A DNA stretch of 56,620 nucleotides from a virus. Of this stretch, positions 10,677 through 53,776 are shown piece by piece (within the stretch, counting starts at the first letter, position 1; every line of letters begins with the position of its first letter). The translations under genes and the position numbers were made by a program. The stretch is taken from positions 1 to 56,620 of IMG/VR virus record IMGVR_UViG_3300036835_000176. The stretch is one strand, 5' to 3'. Below the pieces are notes generated by a model. The model worked only from the letters and a program-made list of their open reading frames with translations. It was not told where the DNA came from and made no database searches.

Positions 10677-10690
10677 AGAACTGCCGTCTA

Positions 10691-10713
10691 GGTTGGGAGT
10701 AATTAACCCAACC
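10691..10713 (+). ncRNA. Hairpin in the leader of the GIY-YIG gene
   Basis: GGTTGGG (10691-10697) and CCCAACC (10707-10713) pair around AGTAATTAA. A second inverted pair CCCTAG/CTAGGG follows downstream before the start codon. The leader could control translation, or the first hairpin could act as a weak stop; there is no T-run. Confidence 0.4.
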
Positions 10714-10777
10714 GAAAAGCCGTTCCCTAGCGGCCTGGCGGCGCACATTCTAGGGACCACCATAGGGAGTGGCAACC

Positions 10778-11530
10778 GTGGAACCCTCTGCCTCCGCGTG
10801 TCCGTCAGGCATCTATGCCATTACCCACATCGCTAGTGGTAAGTGCTACATCGGCTCCACAAACAACTTTCGTCGGCGCTGGAGCGAGCATCGGGCAGAA
10901 CTGAATCATGGCAAGCATCATAGCAAGCCACTCCAGAACGCTTGGCGCAAATATGGGTCTGCCGCTTTTGCGTTCACCATCCTTGAGTATGTACCCGATC
11001 TTACACTGCTCATAACTCGCGAGCAGTATTACTTAGATACACGGCTCATTGCCAAAGGCAGCAGAGAATACAACGTTCTCTTGGACGCCACAAGCATGCT
11101 CGGACTGAAGCACACCCCAGAGACACGGGCAAAATTAAGCTGGCTCCTCAAAGGTCGAAGCATCACGTGGTCTGATAAATTGCGTGGGCGCGTTGTGTCT
11201 GAGGAAACACGTATCAAATTGAGCGAGAATGCCAAGAAACAAGCGCGCACGCCGGAAAGCAACGCGAAACGTTCTGTTACGCTGAAAGGTCGCCCTAAGA
11301 ATGCGCGCCTTACTGAGTTGGCGCGCGAGACACGACGCAGAAACATTCTCGCAACGCAAACGCCAGAGGCGCGAGCGAAGTCTATGCAGACGCGGCATAG
11401 TCGCCCACCAACTGAGAAACAATTAGCCTATTGGGCACGATTGAGCATTGAAACAACTAGGCGGAATCGCCAAGGAAGGCGCAAACCCTTGCGCGCCACT
11501 CAGCCATTCTTGTGGCCCGATGAGGATTAG
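10778..11530 (+). CDS. GIY-YIG homing endonuclease with NUMOD repeats
   Basis: 250 residues from GTG 10778, eight bases after AGGGAG; a GTG at 10769 lacks such a site. The GIY-YIG nuclease spans about residues 9-92 (SGIYAI, CYIGST, RRRWSEH, EQYYLDT giving the catalytic Tyr, Arg and Glu). Several NUMOD3-like DNA-binding motifs follow (LKHTPETRAKLS, SEETRIKLSENAKK, TPEARAKS), the standard build of I-TevI/Seg-type enzymes. It faces against the late operon between moron and tail genes. It is a free-standing homing gene; no intron is evident around it. Confidence 0.88.
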   Translation: MEPSASACPSGIYAITHIASGKCYIGSTNNFRRRWSEHRAELNHGKHHSKPLQNAWRKYGSAAFAFTILEYVPDLTLLITREQYYLDTRLIAKGSREYNVLLDATSMLGLKHTPETRAKLSWLLKGRSITWSDKLRGRVVSEETRIKLSENAKKQARTPESNAKRSVTLKGRPKNARLTELARETRRRNILATQTPEARAKSMQTRHSRPPTEKQLAYWARLSIETTRRNRQGRRKPLRATQPFLWPDED

Positions 11531-18330: not shown

Positions 18331-18433
18331 CCGCTACTCCTAATCCTGCGCCACCTATCAGTAATATTGTATTCCTGCTAAGCGGCGCAAAACCGGAAAT
18401 AGCCTGGATTGGTACCAACCGAACGCGCTAGGA

Positions 18434-28434: not shown

Positions 28435-28464
28435 GATCTAGCGGAACTTAGATCGTGATATGAT
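28435..28464 (+). promoter_or_regulatory. Integrase promoter with palindromic operator
   Basis: GATCTA (28435-28440) and TAGATC (28449-28454) form an inverted repeat. Immediately after it TGA-TATGAT (28456-28464) fits an extended -10. A repressor at the palindrome would cover the promoter. The region also has to contain the start of the leftward late transcript, for which I see no clear promoter. Confidence 0.45.
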
Positions 28465-28501
28465 CGGGCTATTTTCGGGCCATATGAAAGGGGATTTTGT
28501 G

Positions 28502-29494
28502 ATGTCAGGGAACGAGATACGCGACGTGGAGATCATTGGGTATCACTCGTTGCCGTGGGAGGTTGACGCGCTACGCGAGTGGATGGCGTCGCTTCGTGGG
28601 CGCTCTGGCTCGCAGAAGACTTTGCGCGGCTATTGGGATACGTTTACCGACTTCGCGCGCACGCTCGCATCTGCGGGCTTCCGCCTTGATGACGATACGC
28701 AGGACGTGGCGCGCGTCGCGCGGGAATGGTCGGAGCGATGGGGCAAGGGCAAGCCACCATCTAAAGCGACCATCGCGCTACGCCTTACGGTTGTCAGCAG
28801 CTTCTATCGCTTCGCCCGGAAGCGGACGAAGTTCGACAAGGCCAACCCGATTGACTTGCTTGACCGGCCCAACGTGGCAGGATACGAGAAGGCGCGCCCA
28901 CTGCCATTCGGAACCGTGAGCGCCGCGCTCGCAAAGATTGACCGCTCAACGCCACAAGGCGCGCGTGACTACGCCTTGCTCTTGCTCGGCTTGCGTACCG
29001 GCAAGCGCAAGTCAGAACTGGCCGCGCTGTCGTGGAGCGATCTGGCATTAGAGGGCGCTATCATCACCGTGACATGGCCGCGTCTGAAAGGTGACAAGAG
29101 CGCATGGACGGAATTGAGCGGCGAAGTATCTGACGCGCTCTTGGCGTGGCTGGAGATGGCCTATGGTCACATCAGCCCGAATGCGATCATTGCGCCGGAC
29201 GCGCCGGTGTGGATCTCATTCGCCCGCAGTCTGCCCAAGGGGCGTATCGAGCGTATGACGCCATCTGCTATCGCCTATATCTGCCAGAAACGGCTCGGTA
29301 CGTCGCGCGTTCACCGTTTGCGCCACACCTACGCGCGTGACTTACTCGCATCCGGCGCATCACCAACAGAGATACAGGCGCTCTTGGGGCATTCCAGCCT
29401 GGTCACGACAGACCGCTATCTGCCACACCTGACGCCAACGCGCGACCCATACGCTGTGAAGATTGCCGCGCTCTATGCTGAGAAGGGCGACTAG
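28502..29494 (+). CDS. Tyrosine recombinase (integrase)
   Basis: 330 residues from ATG 28502, eight bases after AAAGGGG; upstream ATGs at 28460 and 28484 lack a site. Residues ~18-115 are the SAM-like core-binding domain (LREWMASLRGRSGSQKTLRGYW). The catalytic domain has Arg169 (TGKRKSEL), Lys196 (RLKGDK), His271-x-x-Arg274 (HRLRHTYA), His297 (LGHSS) and nucleophile Tyr306 (TTDRYL). It is short and XerC-like, without an obvious arm-binding domain. Lone on the plus strand between late and replication clusters. Confidence 0.93.
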   Translation: MSGNEIRDVEIIGYHSLPWEVDALREWMASLRGRSGSQKTLRGYWDTFTDFARTLASAGFRLDDDTQDVARVAREWSERWGKGKPPSKATIALRLTVVSSFYRFARKRTKFDKANPIDLLDRPNVAGYEKARPLPFGTVSAALAKIDRSTPQGARDYALLLLGLRTGKRKSELAALSWSDLALEGAIITVTWPRLKGDKSAWTELSGEVSDALLAWLEMAYGHISPNAIIAPDAPVWISFARSLPKGRIERMTPSAIAYICQKRLGTSRVHRLRHTYARDLLASGASPTEIQALLGHSSLVTTDRYLPHLTPTRDPYAVKIAALYAEKGD

Positions 29495-29503
29495 AAAGGC
29501 GAT

Positions 29504-29620
29504 GGCCCCGGCAGGCGACAGGGGGAGAGGAACCTATCGTCAGCGCTCCTGCCGGGGAAGCCAGAGGCCCGATGGGGTGACTTACACATCCGGAGTAAGC
29601 CGTACGGTCCCCACCGGGCC
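29504..29620. other. Double-hairpin structured element after the integrase (possible attP or RNA)
   Basis: Two strong inverted repeats stand back to back. The first is CCCCGGCAGG (29506-29515) with CCTGCCGGGG (29548-29557), 10 perfect pairs. The second is GGCCCGATGGGG (29566-29577) with CCCCACCGGGCC (29609-29620), 11 of 12 pairs, enclosing a further CTTAC/GTAAG stem. No T-run follows, so a simple terminator is unlikely. Phage attachment sites commonly adjoin the integrase gene, which is one reading; a structured RNA is another. Confidence 0.6.
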
Positions 29621-38734: not shown

Positions 38735-38779
38735 GTCACTGTCACTTTTTGGTGGCTACAAAAGTCACCCGAAGTCACC
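38735..38779 (-). repeat. GTCAC repeats upstream of the RHH promoter
   Basis: Four GTCAC motifs in 45 bases, two as CGTCACTGTCAC and two within a direct repeat AAGTCACCC (38762-38780 region). Short direct repeats near the -35 are typical of RHH operator sites. They overlap the end of the serine recombinase gene. Confidence 0.5.
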
Positions 38780-40631
38780 CTACCGCTTCACGCGCGACTT
38801 GCGAGAGACTGAACGCCTCGGCGAAGTCTGGCCGCAACCGTATCGTCCCTAACTCGCATGACGGCGGAAGGGTGCTGGCGTCAATCCAGCGATTGTAGTA
38901 TCCCTTGCTCGCGCGCAGGATCAGCGGCATACCCTTCGCTTCGATCATCCGCGCCGCTATCGCTTGCCGTTCCGCGAGCGTCAACTCATCGCGCCAGAGC
39001 GTTACCGCATCGTGAATGATACTGGCTGCGTTCATGAGCCGCGTCACGTGCTGCTCGACCGTCTGCCCCGCGCCCTCTAGCCGTGAAATCTCTTTGCTAA
39101 TGGCATCGTGGCGCCGATCAAACTCGTCGCGCTCGATCTCCCCCAACGCATAGAGATGGTTGTTCGCCTCGCGCCGGCGGTGCGCCTTCGCCAGCTCGCG
39201 CATCCGTTCGCGTGTATCCGCCTGCCCGTCTGGCCGCCCATCTGTATCCCCATTGCGCGCCAGGGTCACCGCCCGCGCGTGAACGGCTTGCTCCCACGCC
39301 TCCGGTAGCGCCTGCGCGCCAAGCCAGTCCAGCCACGCCGCGCGCACGTCCTCGACCCGCGCCCACTTGCCGCTCTGGCTACACTGGACGCCACGATCAG
39401 CAGCGTCGCACACATAGCGTTCGTAGATGCGCTTGACGCCATCCTTTGCCGTGTCATGGACCGTACGCCGCACGTAAAGGACGCCGCCGCATTCGGCGCA
39501 CACCACAAGCCCGCGAAACTCTGCCGTGTAGGGTTCTGGCCTGAGTCCGGCGCTATGCCCCGTCCAGCCGCGCCGCCGTCCCTCGGCGATCTGCTGTAGC
39601 GCGTGCCATTCTTCCCACGACAGCGCCGCCGCATGTGTCCCCCGGTAGGTTCGCCCCTTGCTCACGACGGTCCCATTTGGATCTCCGATGGTGAACGGGC
39701 GATAGAAGCGGTTGCGCCGGATGACGCTCACCGTCTGGCGCGTCCATACCCGCGCCTCATTGGCCTTCTTTCCGCCGCCCGGTGTGAGCGGCGCGGGCCA
39801 GTGGCCATCCCGATTCATGCGCTCGGCGATCTCGCCATCTGTCAGGCACTCGCGCATCAGCGCATAAAGACACATCAACCCTTCCCACGTCCCGCCAACG
39901 TCCGGCTCCGCGCCCGCCTGCCCTAGCGCCTTCGTCGCGGCGCGCGGGTCGGCGCCCATGCGCTCCAGCGCCGCCTTTACCGCATCCAGGTTCTTGCGAT
40001 AGCCATACGGCACGCGACAGGCGTACAGGCCCTTCATCACGCGCTCGGCTTTGCCGTCCGCTATCGCGCCGCCGCGTTTGCGGTTCTCGCCTTCGGTCAT
40101 GGAGATGATGAAACGTAGCGCCATCCAGCCTGCCGGGGTGTTGGCGTCAAACTTCTCTTGCAGCGACACGAAGCGCACTCCGGCGCGCTCTAACTCTCCC
40201 AACGCCAGCAAGGTCACGATCTCTGAGCGCGAGAACCTATCGAGTTTGTACACGGCTACGATGTCGTACTCACCTGAGAGCGCGGCGCGTAGCATTCGCA
40301 GAAAGACGGTGCGTTTGGCGAGCTTGCGATCTGTCGCGCTCTTGGCTGGCTCGTCAAAATAGTCCACGTCCCACTGCACACCATCGCGCGTCTGCGCCTG
40401 CGCTTCCTGCTCGAAGCTTGTGTGCTGCATGGGAATAGACCAGCCATCGTTTTGCATGGCCGAGCTATAGCGGCAATAGGCGGCGACGCGCAGCGGACGT
40501 TGACGCGCGATGAGCGCTTGCTCACCATCCTGTGCAAGCGCGCTCAGGACCGGGCGTTTGCTCGGCGATGTGGCGAGCGATACCAGCCGGTCTACGATTT
40601 CCTCTGGCGACTCAGATGCTCGGCGCGGCAT
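38775..40631 (-). CDS. Large serine recombinase
   Basis: 618 residues from ATG 40631; the frame extends upstream but that part overlaps the preceding gene. The resolvase domain (~45-200) has nucleophile Ser56 (AYCRYSS) and the YDIVAVYKLDRFSRS motif with its catalytic arginine. A recombinase domain follows (PYGYRKNL, MNRDGHWPAPLT), a zinc ribbon (CAECGGVLYV, later CDAADRGVQC), then a coiled coil (DEFDRRHDAISKEISRLE). Large serine integrases insert phage DNA at attP/attB without host factors. Its coexistence with the tyrosine integrase is unusual. Confidence 0.92.
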   Translation of the reverse strand: MPRRASESPEEIVDRLVSLATSPSKRPVLSALAQDGEQALIARQRPLRVAAYCRYSSAMQNDGWSIPMQHTSFEQEAQAQTRDGVQWDVDYFDEPAKSATDRKLAKRTVFLRMLRAALSGEYDIVAVYKLDRFSRSEIVTLLALGELERAGVRFVSLQEKFDANTPAGWMALRFIISMTEGENRKRGGAIADGKAERVMKGLYACRVPYGYRKNLDAVKAALERMGADPRAATKALGQAGAEPDVGGTWEGLMCLYALMRECLTDGEIAERMNRDGHWPAPLTPGGGKKANEARVWTRQTVSVIRRNRFYRPFTIGDPNGTVVSKGRTYRGTHAAALSWEEWHALQQIAEGRRRGWTGHSAGLRPEPYTAEFRGLVVCAECGGVLYVRRTVHDTAKDGVKRIYERYVCDAADRGVQCSQSGKWARVEDVRAAWLDWLGAQALPEAWEQAVHARAVTLARNGDTDGRPDGQADTRERMRELAKAHRRREANNHLYALGEIERDEFDRRHDAISKEISRLEGAGQTVEQHVTRLMNAASIIHDAVTLWRDELTLAERQAIAARMIEAKGMPLILRASKGYYNRWIDASTLPPSCELGTIRLRPDFAEAFSLSQVAREAVG

Positions 40632-40836
40632 AGACGGTACCCGACTTCTTGCCTGACTGCTTGCGGCGCGTGCGCTGTGGCTGTTTCGCCTGCTCTGTCC
40701 GTAGTCCTGCCTGTTCGCGCAAGGCCCGCCGCGCCGCTGCTCTGGCGAGTATCCAGAGTACCGCATCCACGTCTGGCGTGAAACGCATCTCGGCAATTGG
40801 GCTAGCCGCCTTGGTGACTTTCCTGCGTGCGCTCAT
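40612..40836 (-). CDS. Hypothetical basic protein
   Basis: 74 residues from ATG 40836, overlapping the VRR-NUC stop (ATGA). Contains RFTPDVDAVLWILARAAARRAL and a strongly basic tail (QRTRRKQSGKKSG). It overlaps the recombinase start by about 20 bases. May be a small DNA-binding partner of the recombinase, for example a directionality factor; there is no direct proof. Confidence 0.5.
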   Translation of the reverse strand: MSARRKVTKAASPIAEMRFTPDVDAVLWILARAAARRALREQAGLRTEQAKQPQRTRRKQSGKKSGTVYAAPSI

Positions 40837-42773: not shown

Positions 42774-44144
42774 ATGGAAAGGAAACGAGTGGTAATGAGC
42801 GAGAGCCTGGAACGGGGGCCAGAGGGCAAACGCAGACGGCAGCGGGTAAGCCGCCCGATTCCGCGCGAGGGCGTGGAACCGTTAGACCAGCCGACGATCC
42901 CACTCTTTCTCGCGCCGATTGAGGACTGGCGTACGGAGGCGGACATACGCGACGCGCGTGTGCGGATCGCCTGGGGCATGATTCTGGCGACACGCGAACA
43001 GGCGGTAGACGCGGCGGGACGGGCGCTACGTTGGGTACCTTCCAGCCTGCAGGTGATCGCAAATATGTGGTGGCAATTGGGCGGCTCACCGCACTACATC
43101 GTGCAACGCGACCCGCTCCTACTGGCGCGTGTCTCGCGCAGTGGACAGGCGCCACTCATCCTGCTCTCACTCATGGCGTTAGAGGCGATGATTGCGCGCC
43201 CTGAGTTGATTGACCGCTTGCGGATCGCGATTGAGTATTGCTCGACATGGCTACGGAATCGCGCAGAGGACAGCGACGATCCGAACACCATGCTGGCGCT
43301 GGATAGCGGCGCGGCGTCCCCGTACATCCGCTGGCTACACGACTCATTTGACGTGACGCCGGATCGTCTTGAAGCGCTGCCACCTGAGCCACAGCCGCGT
43401 GTGGATACGCCCATGCCGCTGTACCTGCAAGCGCCAGCGGGTGAGGACTACTACCGCACGCATCCAAGCCCGGCTGGCGTTGATGTGGACGTGAGCGCGG
43501 GGCATACGTATCCAACACACGTTGGCAGTCGGTCACAGCGATTCACGCCAAGCCCGCAGTTCCCGCCACAACCGGAAGAGCAAGCGGTCTCACCCGACGC
43601 CGAGACGCTGCCAGACAATCAGGAACGCACGCAGGAGCGAGCAGAGGAGCGAGCAGAGGAGCGAGCAGAGGATACCGCCACACTCACCCGCGCGCCCGTT
43701 CCCATTGACCCACTTGCTACCGTCCATGGCCCGGTCCTGCCGCGCACACGCGCATTGATGCGTCTCTTACTGCCCACGCCGCCACGCGATGAGGCCGAAG
43801 CGCGACAATGGGCCGCCGATCCGTCGTACATGGCGTATCTGCTGGAACGTGAGCTGGCGTTACGCGCGAAGTATTGGCCTGAAAGCGTCGGCGTCGGGCC
43901 AGTAGACGATGATACCTGCCTGCGCTGCCATCAGGCGTGTCGGCGTATCTCGCCAAACCTCGCGCATCCCGGCCTGATCTGGCTCTGCGCCGGATGTCAA
44001 GCCGAGATCGAAGGCTATGCGCGCGGGCTGGCGCGCAGCAGGCATTGGGAAGTGTACAGCGTGATTGAGCGGATACTCTCACGAGAGCATCTGCTCAAGA
44101 CGGATCACGGAAAGCCCGGTGTCAGGCGCGTAACGCAAGGATGA
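42774..44144 (+). CDS. Large protein of unknown function with zinc site
   Basis: 456 residues; ATG 42774 and ATG 42795 are both possible. Residues ~55-190 are a helical domain (RIAWGMILATREQAVDAAGRAL, LIDRLRIAIEYCSTWLRNRAED). A long disordered Pro/Glu-rich middle has the tandem ERAEERAEERAE. The C-terminal ~115 residues have CLRCHQAC...CAGC, a probable zinc ribbon, then a helix. It has its own promoter and terminator, so it is expressed as a single unit. Not recognised. Confidence 0.65.
   Translation: MERKRVVMSESLERGPEGKRRRQRVSRPIPREGVEPLDQPTIPLFLAPIEDWRTEADIRDARVRIAWGMILATREQAVDAAGRALRWVPSSLQVIANMWWQLGGSPHYIVQRDPLLLARVSRSGQAPLILLSLMALEAMIARPELIDRLRIAIEYCSTWLRNRAEDSDDPNTMLALDSGAASPYIRWLHDSFDVTPDRLEALPPEPQPRVDTPMPLYLQAPAGEDYYRTHPSPAGVDVDVSAGHTYPTHVGSRSQRFTPSPQFPPQPEEQAVSPDAETLPDNQERTQERAEERAEERAEDTATLTRAPVPIDPLATVHGPVLPRTRALMRLLLPTPPRDEAEARQWAADPSYMAYLLERELALRAKYWPESVGVGPVDDDTCLRCHQACRRISPNLAHPGLIWLCAGCQAEIEGYARGLARSRHWEVYSVIERILSREHLLKTDHGKPGVRRVTQG
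43635..43670 (+). repeat. Three perfect 12-base repeats
   Basis: GAGCGAGCAGAG is repeated three times without error, encoding ERAEERAEERAE. Perfect identity suggests recent slippage. Confidence 0.8.
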
Positions 44145-44533: not shown

Positions 44534-44562
44534 TTGACTTTCTGTGACCGTTCGTGTAGACT
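44534..44562 (+). promoter_or_regulatory. Strong sigma70-type promoter
   Basis: TTGACT (44534-44539), 17-base spacer, TAGACT (44557-44562). Drives the long rightward gene row from 44619. Confidence 0.8.
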
Positions 44563-44618: not shown

Positions 44619-44999
44619 ATGGCGACGGCAGTAGTTGAGCAGACCCAGGTCCGGCGGTACACGGCGCGCAATGTGCAGAATGCGTTGTGGCGGCGGCAGT
44701 CGCTACGGGCGGCGTTCGAGCAGCACACCGCGTACACGGCGTATGAGGTCGCGGAAGTTCCGCATTGCCATCACGTCATCCGGGTACCGAGTCGGAACGA
44801 TGGCAAGCCAGTACGTGTGGTGTGGGATGGCGTCAAAGACGAGTTCTACTGCAACGAGCATGCGATGCACACCTGTTGCCACTCAGGAGCAGCGCTTTTG
44901 CTGTTAATGGCGCGCGGGTTGCTGCCGCACATGGACAGCAGCGAGCCGGGAGAGTTGGAAGCCAATACGCAGGTTTGGCGTCAGGCGAGCGGGAAGTAA
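44619..44999 (+). CDS. Small metal-binding protein
   Basis: 126 residues from ATG 44619 (GGGGGG run seven bases upstream); ATG 44592 lacks a site. HCHHV, then YCNEHAMHTCCHSGAALLLLMARGLLP resembles a SWIM-like zinc finger, which usually mediates DNA or protein contact. First gene of the accessory row behind the 44534 promoter. Confidence 0.6.
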   Translation: MATAVVEQTQVRRYTARNVQNALWRRQSLRAAFEQHTAYTAYEVAEVPHCHHVIRVPSRNDGKPVRVVWDGVKDEFYCNEHAMHTCCHSGAALLLLMARGLLPHMDSSEPGELEANTQVWRQASGK

Positions 45000-45006
45000 G
45001 GGAAGG

Positions 45007-45187
45007 CGAGCAGCCTATTGGTGAGTCTGTCAGTGAAAGCCGTGGCGGCGTCCGTAAAGCCGGGCGTGCCTAGCCAGAGCTGACCTGGGAAAGCTGTCGT
45101 AAGTACCAGGCTTGATGACGCATAGCGGCTCCGACAGGCCCATGTGGCTAGGTCATCACATTGGCAGATTCACCCATAGGTTGCTCG
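45007..45187 (+). ncRNA. Candidate structured RNA closed by a long stem
   Basis: Bases 45008-45035 pair with 45159-45186 in 28 positions: 23 Watson-Crick, 4 G-U wobbles and one mismatch. Wobbles, not perfect DNA complementarity, argue for an RNA fold. One more pair (45007/45187) extends it. Inside, CCTAGCCA (45069-45076) pairs with TGGCTAGG (45145-45152). CCTGG/CCAGG (45084-45110) and CTGTCG/CGACAG (45095-45137) cross each other, a possible pseudoknot. The region has no credible gene and lies between two co-directional genes. It could be a leader switch, a trans-acting RNA or a ribozyme-like element. Confidence 0.6.
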
Positions 45188-45225
45188 GATGTCAAGAGTC
45201 GCCACAAGCGGGAGGAGAGACGACG

Positions 45226-45525
45226 ATGCGAACACTGGTTACTGAGCGACGTAACGGCGGCTGGCTTGCCGAGTACGTAGGGCGCGAATGCACCGCCTAT
45301 TGGGCAGAGCGCTATATCGGACGCGGTGATGCGCGAGTTCACTATTTCGCGCGGGTCGCTGGTGGCGATGTGGTCGGCTTCCTCAAGAAGATGAATCGTA
45401 GTGCGAAGCTGCTGGCAGTGCCCGATTTGGAATGGTTGCCGCCGGTTCCCGATGAACACCACAGACACGGCCCGTATGGCGCTTATTACGGGACCATTCA
45501 GCGTAGCAAAGAGATTGCGCTGTAG
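45226..45525 (+). CDS. Hypothetical protein
   Basis: 99 residues from ATG 45226, with GGAGGAGA six bases upstream. Contains WLAEYVGRECTAYWAERYIGRG and LEWLPPVPDEHHRHGPYG. No family recognised. It follows the structured RNA candidate, whose end is about 20 bases before the ribosome site. Confidence 0.6.
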   Translation: MRTLVTERRNGGWLAEYVGRECTAYWAERYIGRGDARVHYFARVAGGDVVGFLKKMNRSAKLLAVPDLEWLPPVPDEHHRHGPYGAYYGTIQRSKEIAL

Positions 45526-50489: not shown

Positions 50490-50737
50490 CCTTCGCTGAC
50501 ACACAGACGCTTATCGCCTTCATCGGCGGCGTCTCGCTCGGCGCGCTGCTCGCTGTTGTGACGCTGCCCTGGCTGACGGAACGGACGGCAAAAGGCGCGC
50601 GGGATATTCCACAACCGATTCCAACGCCAGCGCAGGCGAAACAAGACATGTTGGCGCGGTGGCGGTCACCAAACGAGCGCGCGCTGATTGTGGCGCTGCG
50701 CGAACGCTATCAAGAGGATGAGAGGGTGAGGGGATGA
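50486..50737 (+). CDS. Small membrane-anchored protein
   Basis: 83 residues on the ATGA overlap. One helix at ~8-30 (LIAFIGGVSLGALLAVVTLPWL) and a charged tail. Overlaps the next gene. Unknown. Confidence 0.5.
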   Translation: MTFADTQTLIAFIGGVSLGALLAVVTLPWLTERTAKGARDIPQPIPTPAQAKQDMLARWRSPNERALIVALRERYQEDERVRG

Positions 50738-51411
50738 GCAATCCCTATCTTGACGCGGCGCGCAAGGTCAACTTTGGCCGCGTTGATTGGACGTCAGCGG
50801 GGCGTGTCGTGCGCGAAGCCGAGCATCTGCCTGATACCGAGTTCCGCGCGGCTCTGAGCAAGGCCGCTATCAACGCTGTCTCAGTACGCGAGATGCGCGA
50901 CCATTTGCGCGCTCGCTATGCCTATGCCATCCCAAATGACAAGGCGCTAAAACTGCTGGTGCGCTTTGCGCCGTTAGTCGAGATCGGCGCTGGCGTTGGC
51001 TACTGGTGTCATCTACTGAGAGAACGCGGCGTTGACATCATCGCGTACGACCAGAAGCCGCCCAAAGATACCACCCATCGCAACGGCTATTTCAACTATG
51101 GCGGCACGGTAGGCACGCTCTGGACGGATGTGCGCTATGGAACCGCTGTCAAGGCGCGCGAACATCCCGACCGTACTCTATTCCTCTGCTGGCCTCCCTA
51201 CGATGAGTCGATGGCGGCGAAGGCGCTTGGCTATTACGCAGGAAGCACGGTGGCCTATGTAGGCGAAGGTCGCGGCGGCTGCACAGGTGATACGCGCTTC
51301 CACAACACGCTAGAGCGCGAGTGGGAGGAAGTGGATTCCTGCCGGATACCGCAGTGGGATGGGATTCACGATGCGTTGGTGATCTATCAGCGGAAGGCGG
51401 CACGCTCATGA
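50734..51411 (+). CDS. SAM-dependent methyltransferase-like protein
   Basis: 225 residues. LVEIGAGVGYWCHLLRERGVDIIAYDQKPP is a class I SAM-binding loop followed by the acidic second strand. Later, TLFLCWPPYDESMAAKAL and VAYVGEGRGGCTGD match a group of small methyltransferase-like proteins with a WPP motif. Target unknown: it could act on nucleic acid, protein or a small molecule. Adjacent to the cytosine methyltransferase. Confidence 0.7.
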   Translation: MSNPYLDAARKVNFGRVDWTSAGRVVREAEHLPDTEFRAALSKAAINAVSVREMRDHLRARYAYAIPNDKALKLLVRFAPLVEIGAGVGYWCHLLRERGVDIIAYDQKPPKDTTHRNGYFNYGGTVGTLWTDVRYGTAVKAREHPDRTLFLCWPPYDESMAAKALGYYAGSTVAYVGEGRGGCTGDTRFHNTLEREWEEVDSCRIPQWDGIHDALVIYQRKAARS

Positions 51412-53633: not shown

Positions 53634-53776
53634 GGACGGACGGCCTGCTGGTAACAGGACGCCCGCCCTGACCGAGGCACGCCGTAAACATGCCCCGGCT
53701 GCGAGCCAGTGTACTACACACCGGCAAGCAAAGCGTGTATGCGGCGTGTCTCTTTACTGAGGCGCGCCGCTTTTTT
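53634..53776 (+). ncRNA. Structured leader RNA B ending in a terminator hairpin
   Basis: Hairpin I pairs 53634-53647 with 53655-53668 (11 of 14) around loop CTGGTAA, again followed by TGACCGA, as in leader A. AGTGTACTAC follows. The end is a 12-pair hairpin, GCGGCG...CGCCGC at 53741-53770, then TTTTTT, a strong Rho-independent terminator. It lies ~80 bases before the secreted protein gene, so it either ends the HNH transcript or attenuates the next gene. No gene lies in 53623-53857. Confidence 0.6.

Follow-up and report, generated by a model that had tools for sequence, protein, structure and literature searches.

The IMG/VR record IMGVR_UViG_3300036835_000176 was analysed whole, and its 56,620 bases are referred to here as the window. 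The record carries tailed phage genes—terminase, portal, capsid, tape-measure, integrase, and Erf/Rad52-like—and no tRNA was found in the 56.6 kb. The element described here lies in the gap after a gene that stops at 44999 and before a 99-aa gene whose start is at 45226. The locus features the following parts:

44534–44562, plus strand: promoter-like site TTGACT-17-TAGACT, a consensus match upstream of the gene run
44619–44999, plus strand: upstream gene, 126 aa, no known family
45007–45187, plus strand: likely structured RNA element, 181 bases, fold z −6.5 and −7.2, without coding signal
45226–45525, plus strand: downstream gene, 99 aa, no known family, with a Shine-Dalgarno sequence at 45210–45217

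The two flanking genes and the element look like one operon. The promoter-like site lies approximately 450 bases upstream of the element and is the sole one in the stretch scanned, with 0.6 expected by chance; it adjoins a leftward gene whose helix-turn-helix match is weak and below cut-off. The plus-strand gene run extends to a terminator-like hairpin at 53741, and terminator-like sites within the run are no more frequent than expected by chance. The interval had been annotated as gene-free, and codon-usage scores referenced to the phage's own genes agree, being below zero in all six frames over 45061–45240. Searches with the flanking proteins in Pfam, PHROGs, NCBIfam, phage records, and IMG/VR pattern scans gave no relative above threshold, and their AlphaFold models, computed without alignments, are uninformative (mean pLDDT of 43 and 37).

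Elsewhere, the record features an int-alpA RNA (RF02996) at 10681–10755 on the plus strand, with a score of 40.9 bits against a cut-off of 35.8. This RNA directly precedes a GIY-YIG endonuclease gene (10769–11530), no integrase adjoins it, and none was detected in 14 control genomes. A tyrosine integrase (28460–29494, plus strand) and a large serine recombinase (38775–40796, minus strand) occur in this one phage record. Directly after the integrase stop follows a gene-free, GC-rich, and hairpin-rich stretch (29495–29620), possibly an attachment site or a second structured RNA; the minus-strand fold of 29461–29620 has a z of −3.6 (20 shuffles). The methyltransferase-like protein encoded at 50734–51411 on the plus strand has its best phage relatives in the haloarchaeal viruses PhiCh1, phiH, and HGTV-1, at 39–43% identity.

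The ends of the element pair with each other to form the closing stem P1:

45007–45035, plus strand: 5′ arm of P1, with 28 of 29 positions pairing with 45159–45187
45159–45187, plus strand: 3′ arm of P1, pairing with 45007–45035

P1 consists of 24 Watson-Crick pairs, four G-U pairs (RNA positions 7, 19, 24, and 27), and one U-C mismatch. The first-pass annotation had described a closing stem of 28 positions with 23 Watson-Crick pairs; the stem itself and the counts of G-U pairs and mismatches stand, while its length is 29 and the Watson-Crick count 24. P1 is the best stem of its kind in the record: even when G-U pairs are counted, every other place stays below 26 of 29 positions, and in 25 simulated windows with matching dinucleotide composition the best stems had 24–25 of 29. 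By itself, the stem contributes approximately −43 kcal/mol, and it stays complete when as many as 400 flanking bases are folded along with it. Two other long stems, at 18333–18403 and 43612–43712, come close to perfect pairing, with 27 and 25 of 29 positions, only if wobble pairs of the minus strand are counted.

The 181 bases of the plus strand fold with −92.7 kcal/mol compared with a shuffle mean of −63.8 kcal/mol (z −6.5; none of 200 shuffles as good). In a scan of 628 plus-strand windows of 181 bases—one sampled window being placed exactly on the element—the element is the lowest with a z of −7.2, the runner-up having −3.8. A 160-base scan, with only 20 shuffles for each window and the element not framed, found other windows near z −6. 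The minus strand of the element is far weaker, with −73.7 kcal/mol and a z of −3.6. P1, the inner stem P3, and both junction hairpins jointly account for −70.8 kcal/mol, and the 123 enclosed bases, taken by themselves, do not surpass shuffled sequence in stability (z −0.6). The abnormal stability originates in P1 and is aided by the nine pairs of P3. Every tolerated pair outside Watson-Crick is a plus-strand G-U, which weakly favours RNA. The first-pass annotation had taken such pairs as an argument for RNA over DNA symmetry; the strand asymmetry of the fold agrees, and the argument is modest by itself, as four G-U and zero A-C pairs would arise about once in 16 times if an inverted repeat merely decayed by transitions. 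The fold is well above chance and has no match in Rfam; the claim of a structured plus-strand RNA is supported, and the RNA reading of the element is likely.

Inside P1, the element features two junction hairpins, the stem P3, and a core:

45039–45049, plus strand: junction hairpin 1, GCCG/CGGC (RNA positions 33–36/40–43; pair probability approximately 0.5)
45050–45065, plus strand: junction hairpin 2, GUCCG/CGGGC (RNA positions 44–48/55–59; pair probability 0.93–0.98)
45068–45076, plus strand: 5′ arm of P3, nine pairs with 45145–45153
45145–45153, plus strand: 3′ arm of P3, pairing with 45068–45076
45077–45137, plus strand: core with possible pseudoknot, helices 45077–45082/45126–45131 and 45084–45088/45106–45110, crossed by 45094–45099/45132–45137

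P3 (RNA positions 62–70/139–147) includes one G-U pair and has nine pairs rather than the eight counted previously. The core helix GAGCUG/CGGCUC (71–76/120–125) stacks directly on P3, the helix CCUGG/CCAGG (78–82/100–104) follows, and the helix CUGUCG/CGACAG (88–93/126–131) crosses both. The crossing helices anticipated in the first-pass annotation thus exist on paper; as a pseudoknot they are unproven, three helices with crossing this strong being equalled by 2% of shuffles. The pseudoknot is only suggested by these predictions and is a reasonable guess rather than a result, since the best nested fold of the core has a comparable energy. A further helix, 75–82/142–149, competes with P3. Readings of the core as a hammerhead (UGAUGA with GAAA) or as a box C/D RNA were dropped because the order of the boxes, as judged by eye, is unfit for either and Rfam gives no match.

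The element had been described as matching no familiar layout, and the Rfam check is in keeping with this: nothing in 45007–45187 reaches the gathering cut-off of any of 4227 Rfam 15 families. Permissive searches returned only WT1-AS_5 at 11.6 bits and MIR807 (RF00886) at 25 bits, both far below cut-off. The latter, the best sub-threshold score, belongs to a microRNA precursor family with a cut-off of 113 bits; it resembles the element only as a long hairpin and bears no relation to it. Blastn of the element against phages and plasmids gave only short, weak matches, none spanning it. DNA patterns over the core loops had six matches in viral and genome contigs, which are attributed to chance since the covariance model finds the element in none of them. 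This model, built from the element as a single sequence, gave no credible homologue in approximately 1,350 genome look-ups. These sampled two phyla, as well as some classes and orders within them, and the draws partly coincide. Two matches at 23–27 bits are judged to be unrelated GC-rich hairpins: they have no loop sequence in common with the element, and either the inner domain is missing altogether or a large part of P1 is. Scores at this level carry no weight because the reverse complement of the element itself reaches 37.5 bits. The two flanking proteins and the protein of the next gene, used as bait, found no credible relatives; portal and terminase led only to distant phages and proviruses, whose fetched loci are without the element, and the model does not find it in the seven whole genomes or records examined. 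This absence of homologues is weak evidence because the sampled draws overlap and the collections may lack very near records.

RNase III-processed operon RNAs are characterized by a helix of at least approximately two turns flanking an enclosed RNA, and the element has such a helix, with 28 pairs over 29 positions kept in longer transcripts. As the first-pass annotation had stated, the element has no T-run; none follows any of its hairpins, and no plus-strand terminator-like site lies between 45007 and 45226. A transcription-terminating riboswitch or attenuator was rejected since no hairpin with a T-run precedes the next gene, and a type III toxin–antitoxin RNA since the element contains no tandem repeat and the next gene matches no family. 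The Shine-Dalgarno sequence of the next gene is predicted to be approximately 0.6–0.8 unpaired with the element whole, cut, or absent, and because this holds in all contexts folded the element looks self-contained. In these predictions the Shine-Dalgarno sequence is mostly free, and the hairpins lack a trailing T-run. This pattern, seen in the ligand-free folds that can be computed, does not favour a switch acting by masking the ribosome site or by stopping transcription.

We tentatively favour, with less than even confidence, an operon-internal RNA in which P1 would be a processing site for a double-strand RNase of the RNase III type, releasing a functional RNA. The element would be copied within a plus-strand phage operon starting near the promoter-like site, and its ends would anneal to the 28-pair helix, which is long enough to serve as an RNase III type substrate. 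Cleavage would free the enclosed RNA of approximately 120–180 bases and, at the same time, part the message of the upstream gene from the downstream message, which would keep a short leader with its ribosome-binding site free. The freed domain—two small hairpins, the nine-pair stem, and possibly the pseudoknot—could act as a small RNA or a protein-binding part. This reading is favoured because the layout of P1 matches rRNA leader–trailer helices and because DicF provides a precedent. In rRNA operons, leader–trailer helices (25–40 bp for pre-16S and 27 bp for pre-23S) flank the enclosed RNA in a polycistronic transcript and are cut by RNase III (PMC10250234). Both have a long helix whose strands flank an enclosed RNA; here, the 123 enclosed bases are not an rRNA and the RNase III cleavage is putative. 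The DicF sRNA originates from the dicB operon of the Qin prophage by processing with RNase III and RNase E (reviewed in PMC12197685). Like the element, it is a phage-derived RNA inside an operon, although such processing is only proposed here; DicF is 53 nt long with a terminator-like structure, whereas the element has no terminator, and no sequence relation is seen.

The ordinary stability of the inner 123 bases speaks against a released functional RNA and would also agree with a stem that carries no cargo of its own. P1 may be a cis-acting mRNA element that, whether cleaved or intact, does no more than keep apart or stabilise the messages of the two neighbouring genes, with the inner sequence as a spacer. 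All excess stability being in P1 and P3 agrees with such an element, and the evidence from position and stem is identical for the two explanations. However, a simple stem would need neither an interior of 123 bases nor an inner nine-pair stem nor the crossing core helices. We regard the cis-acting element as only slightly less probable than a released functional RNA.

The position of the element, early in a long plus-strand gene run after a promoter-like site, would also suit a leader that senses a ligand or protein, or a self-acting antitermination RNA, controlling the downstream genes. The put sites of phage HK022 are an antitermination RNA of this self-acting kind. The helix competing with P3 makes a two-state core conceivable, but no terminator follows the element, the predicted fold hides no ribosome-binding site, Rfam gives no match, and terminator-like sites occur in the gene run only at chance level; control of this type is distinctly unlikely. 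More improbable still is an inverted repeat acting as DNA without an RNA role, whether left over from a small mobile element or serving in protein binding or replication. As DNA, the arms are 83% complementary. Against this, the plus strand folds far better than the minus strand, and the tolerated mispairs are, all but one, G-U on the plus strand. The arms also lack a target-site duplication at the ends, as judged by eye, and occur as a single copy in the record, so that an inverted-repeat mobile element (MITE) was rejected. Chance pairing in a non-coding gap is the least probable explanation, for although no homologue was found to show selection, 28 of 29 positions exceed the simulated maximum of 25 and the fold has the lowest z among 628 windows.

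Phages and prophages encode other structured RNAs without known function, such as ROOL and GOLLD, members of the latter exceeding 800 nt in some cases (PMC12286853). These are much larger than the 181-nt element and often lie near tRNA islands, whereas the element has no tRNA in its window and no Rfam match. On the processing reading, the element could be the first example of a phage structured RNA class not seen before, in which a pseudoknotted domain of approximately 120 bases is excised via the 28-pair helix and acts as a free RNA during infection; we consider this unlikely. If P1 is only a processing stem, it would be a clear though unremarkable site of the RNase III type in a previously unstudied phage. 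If the new class were confirmed, it would extend the short list of phage-encoded structured RNAs, most of which are, to our knowledge, without known function, and would indicate that such elements can be detected even when a genome is so isolated that comparative methods do not apply.
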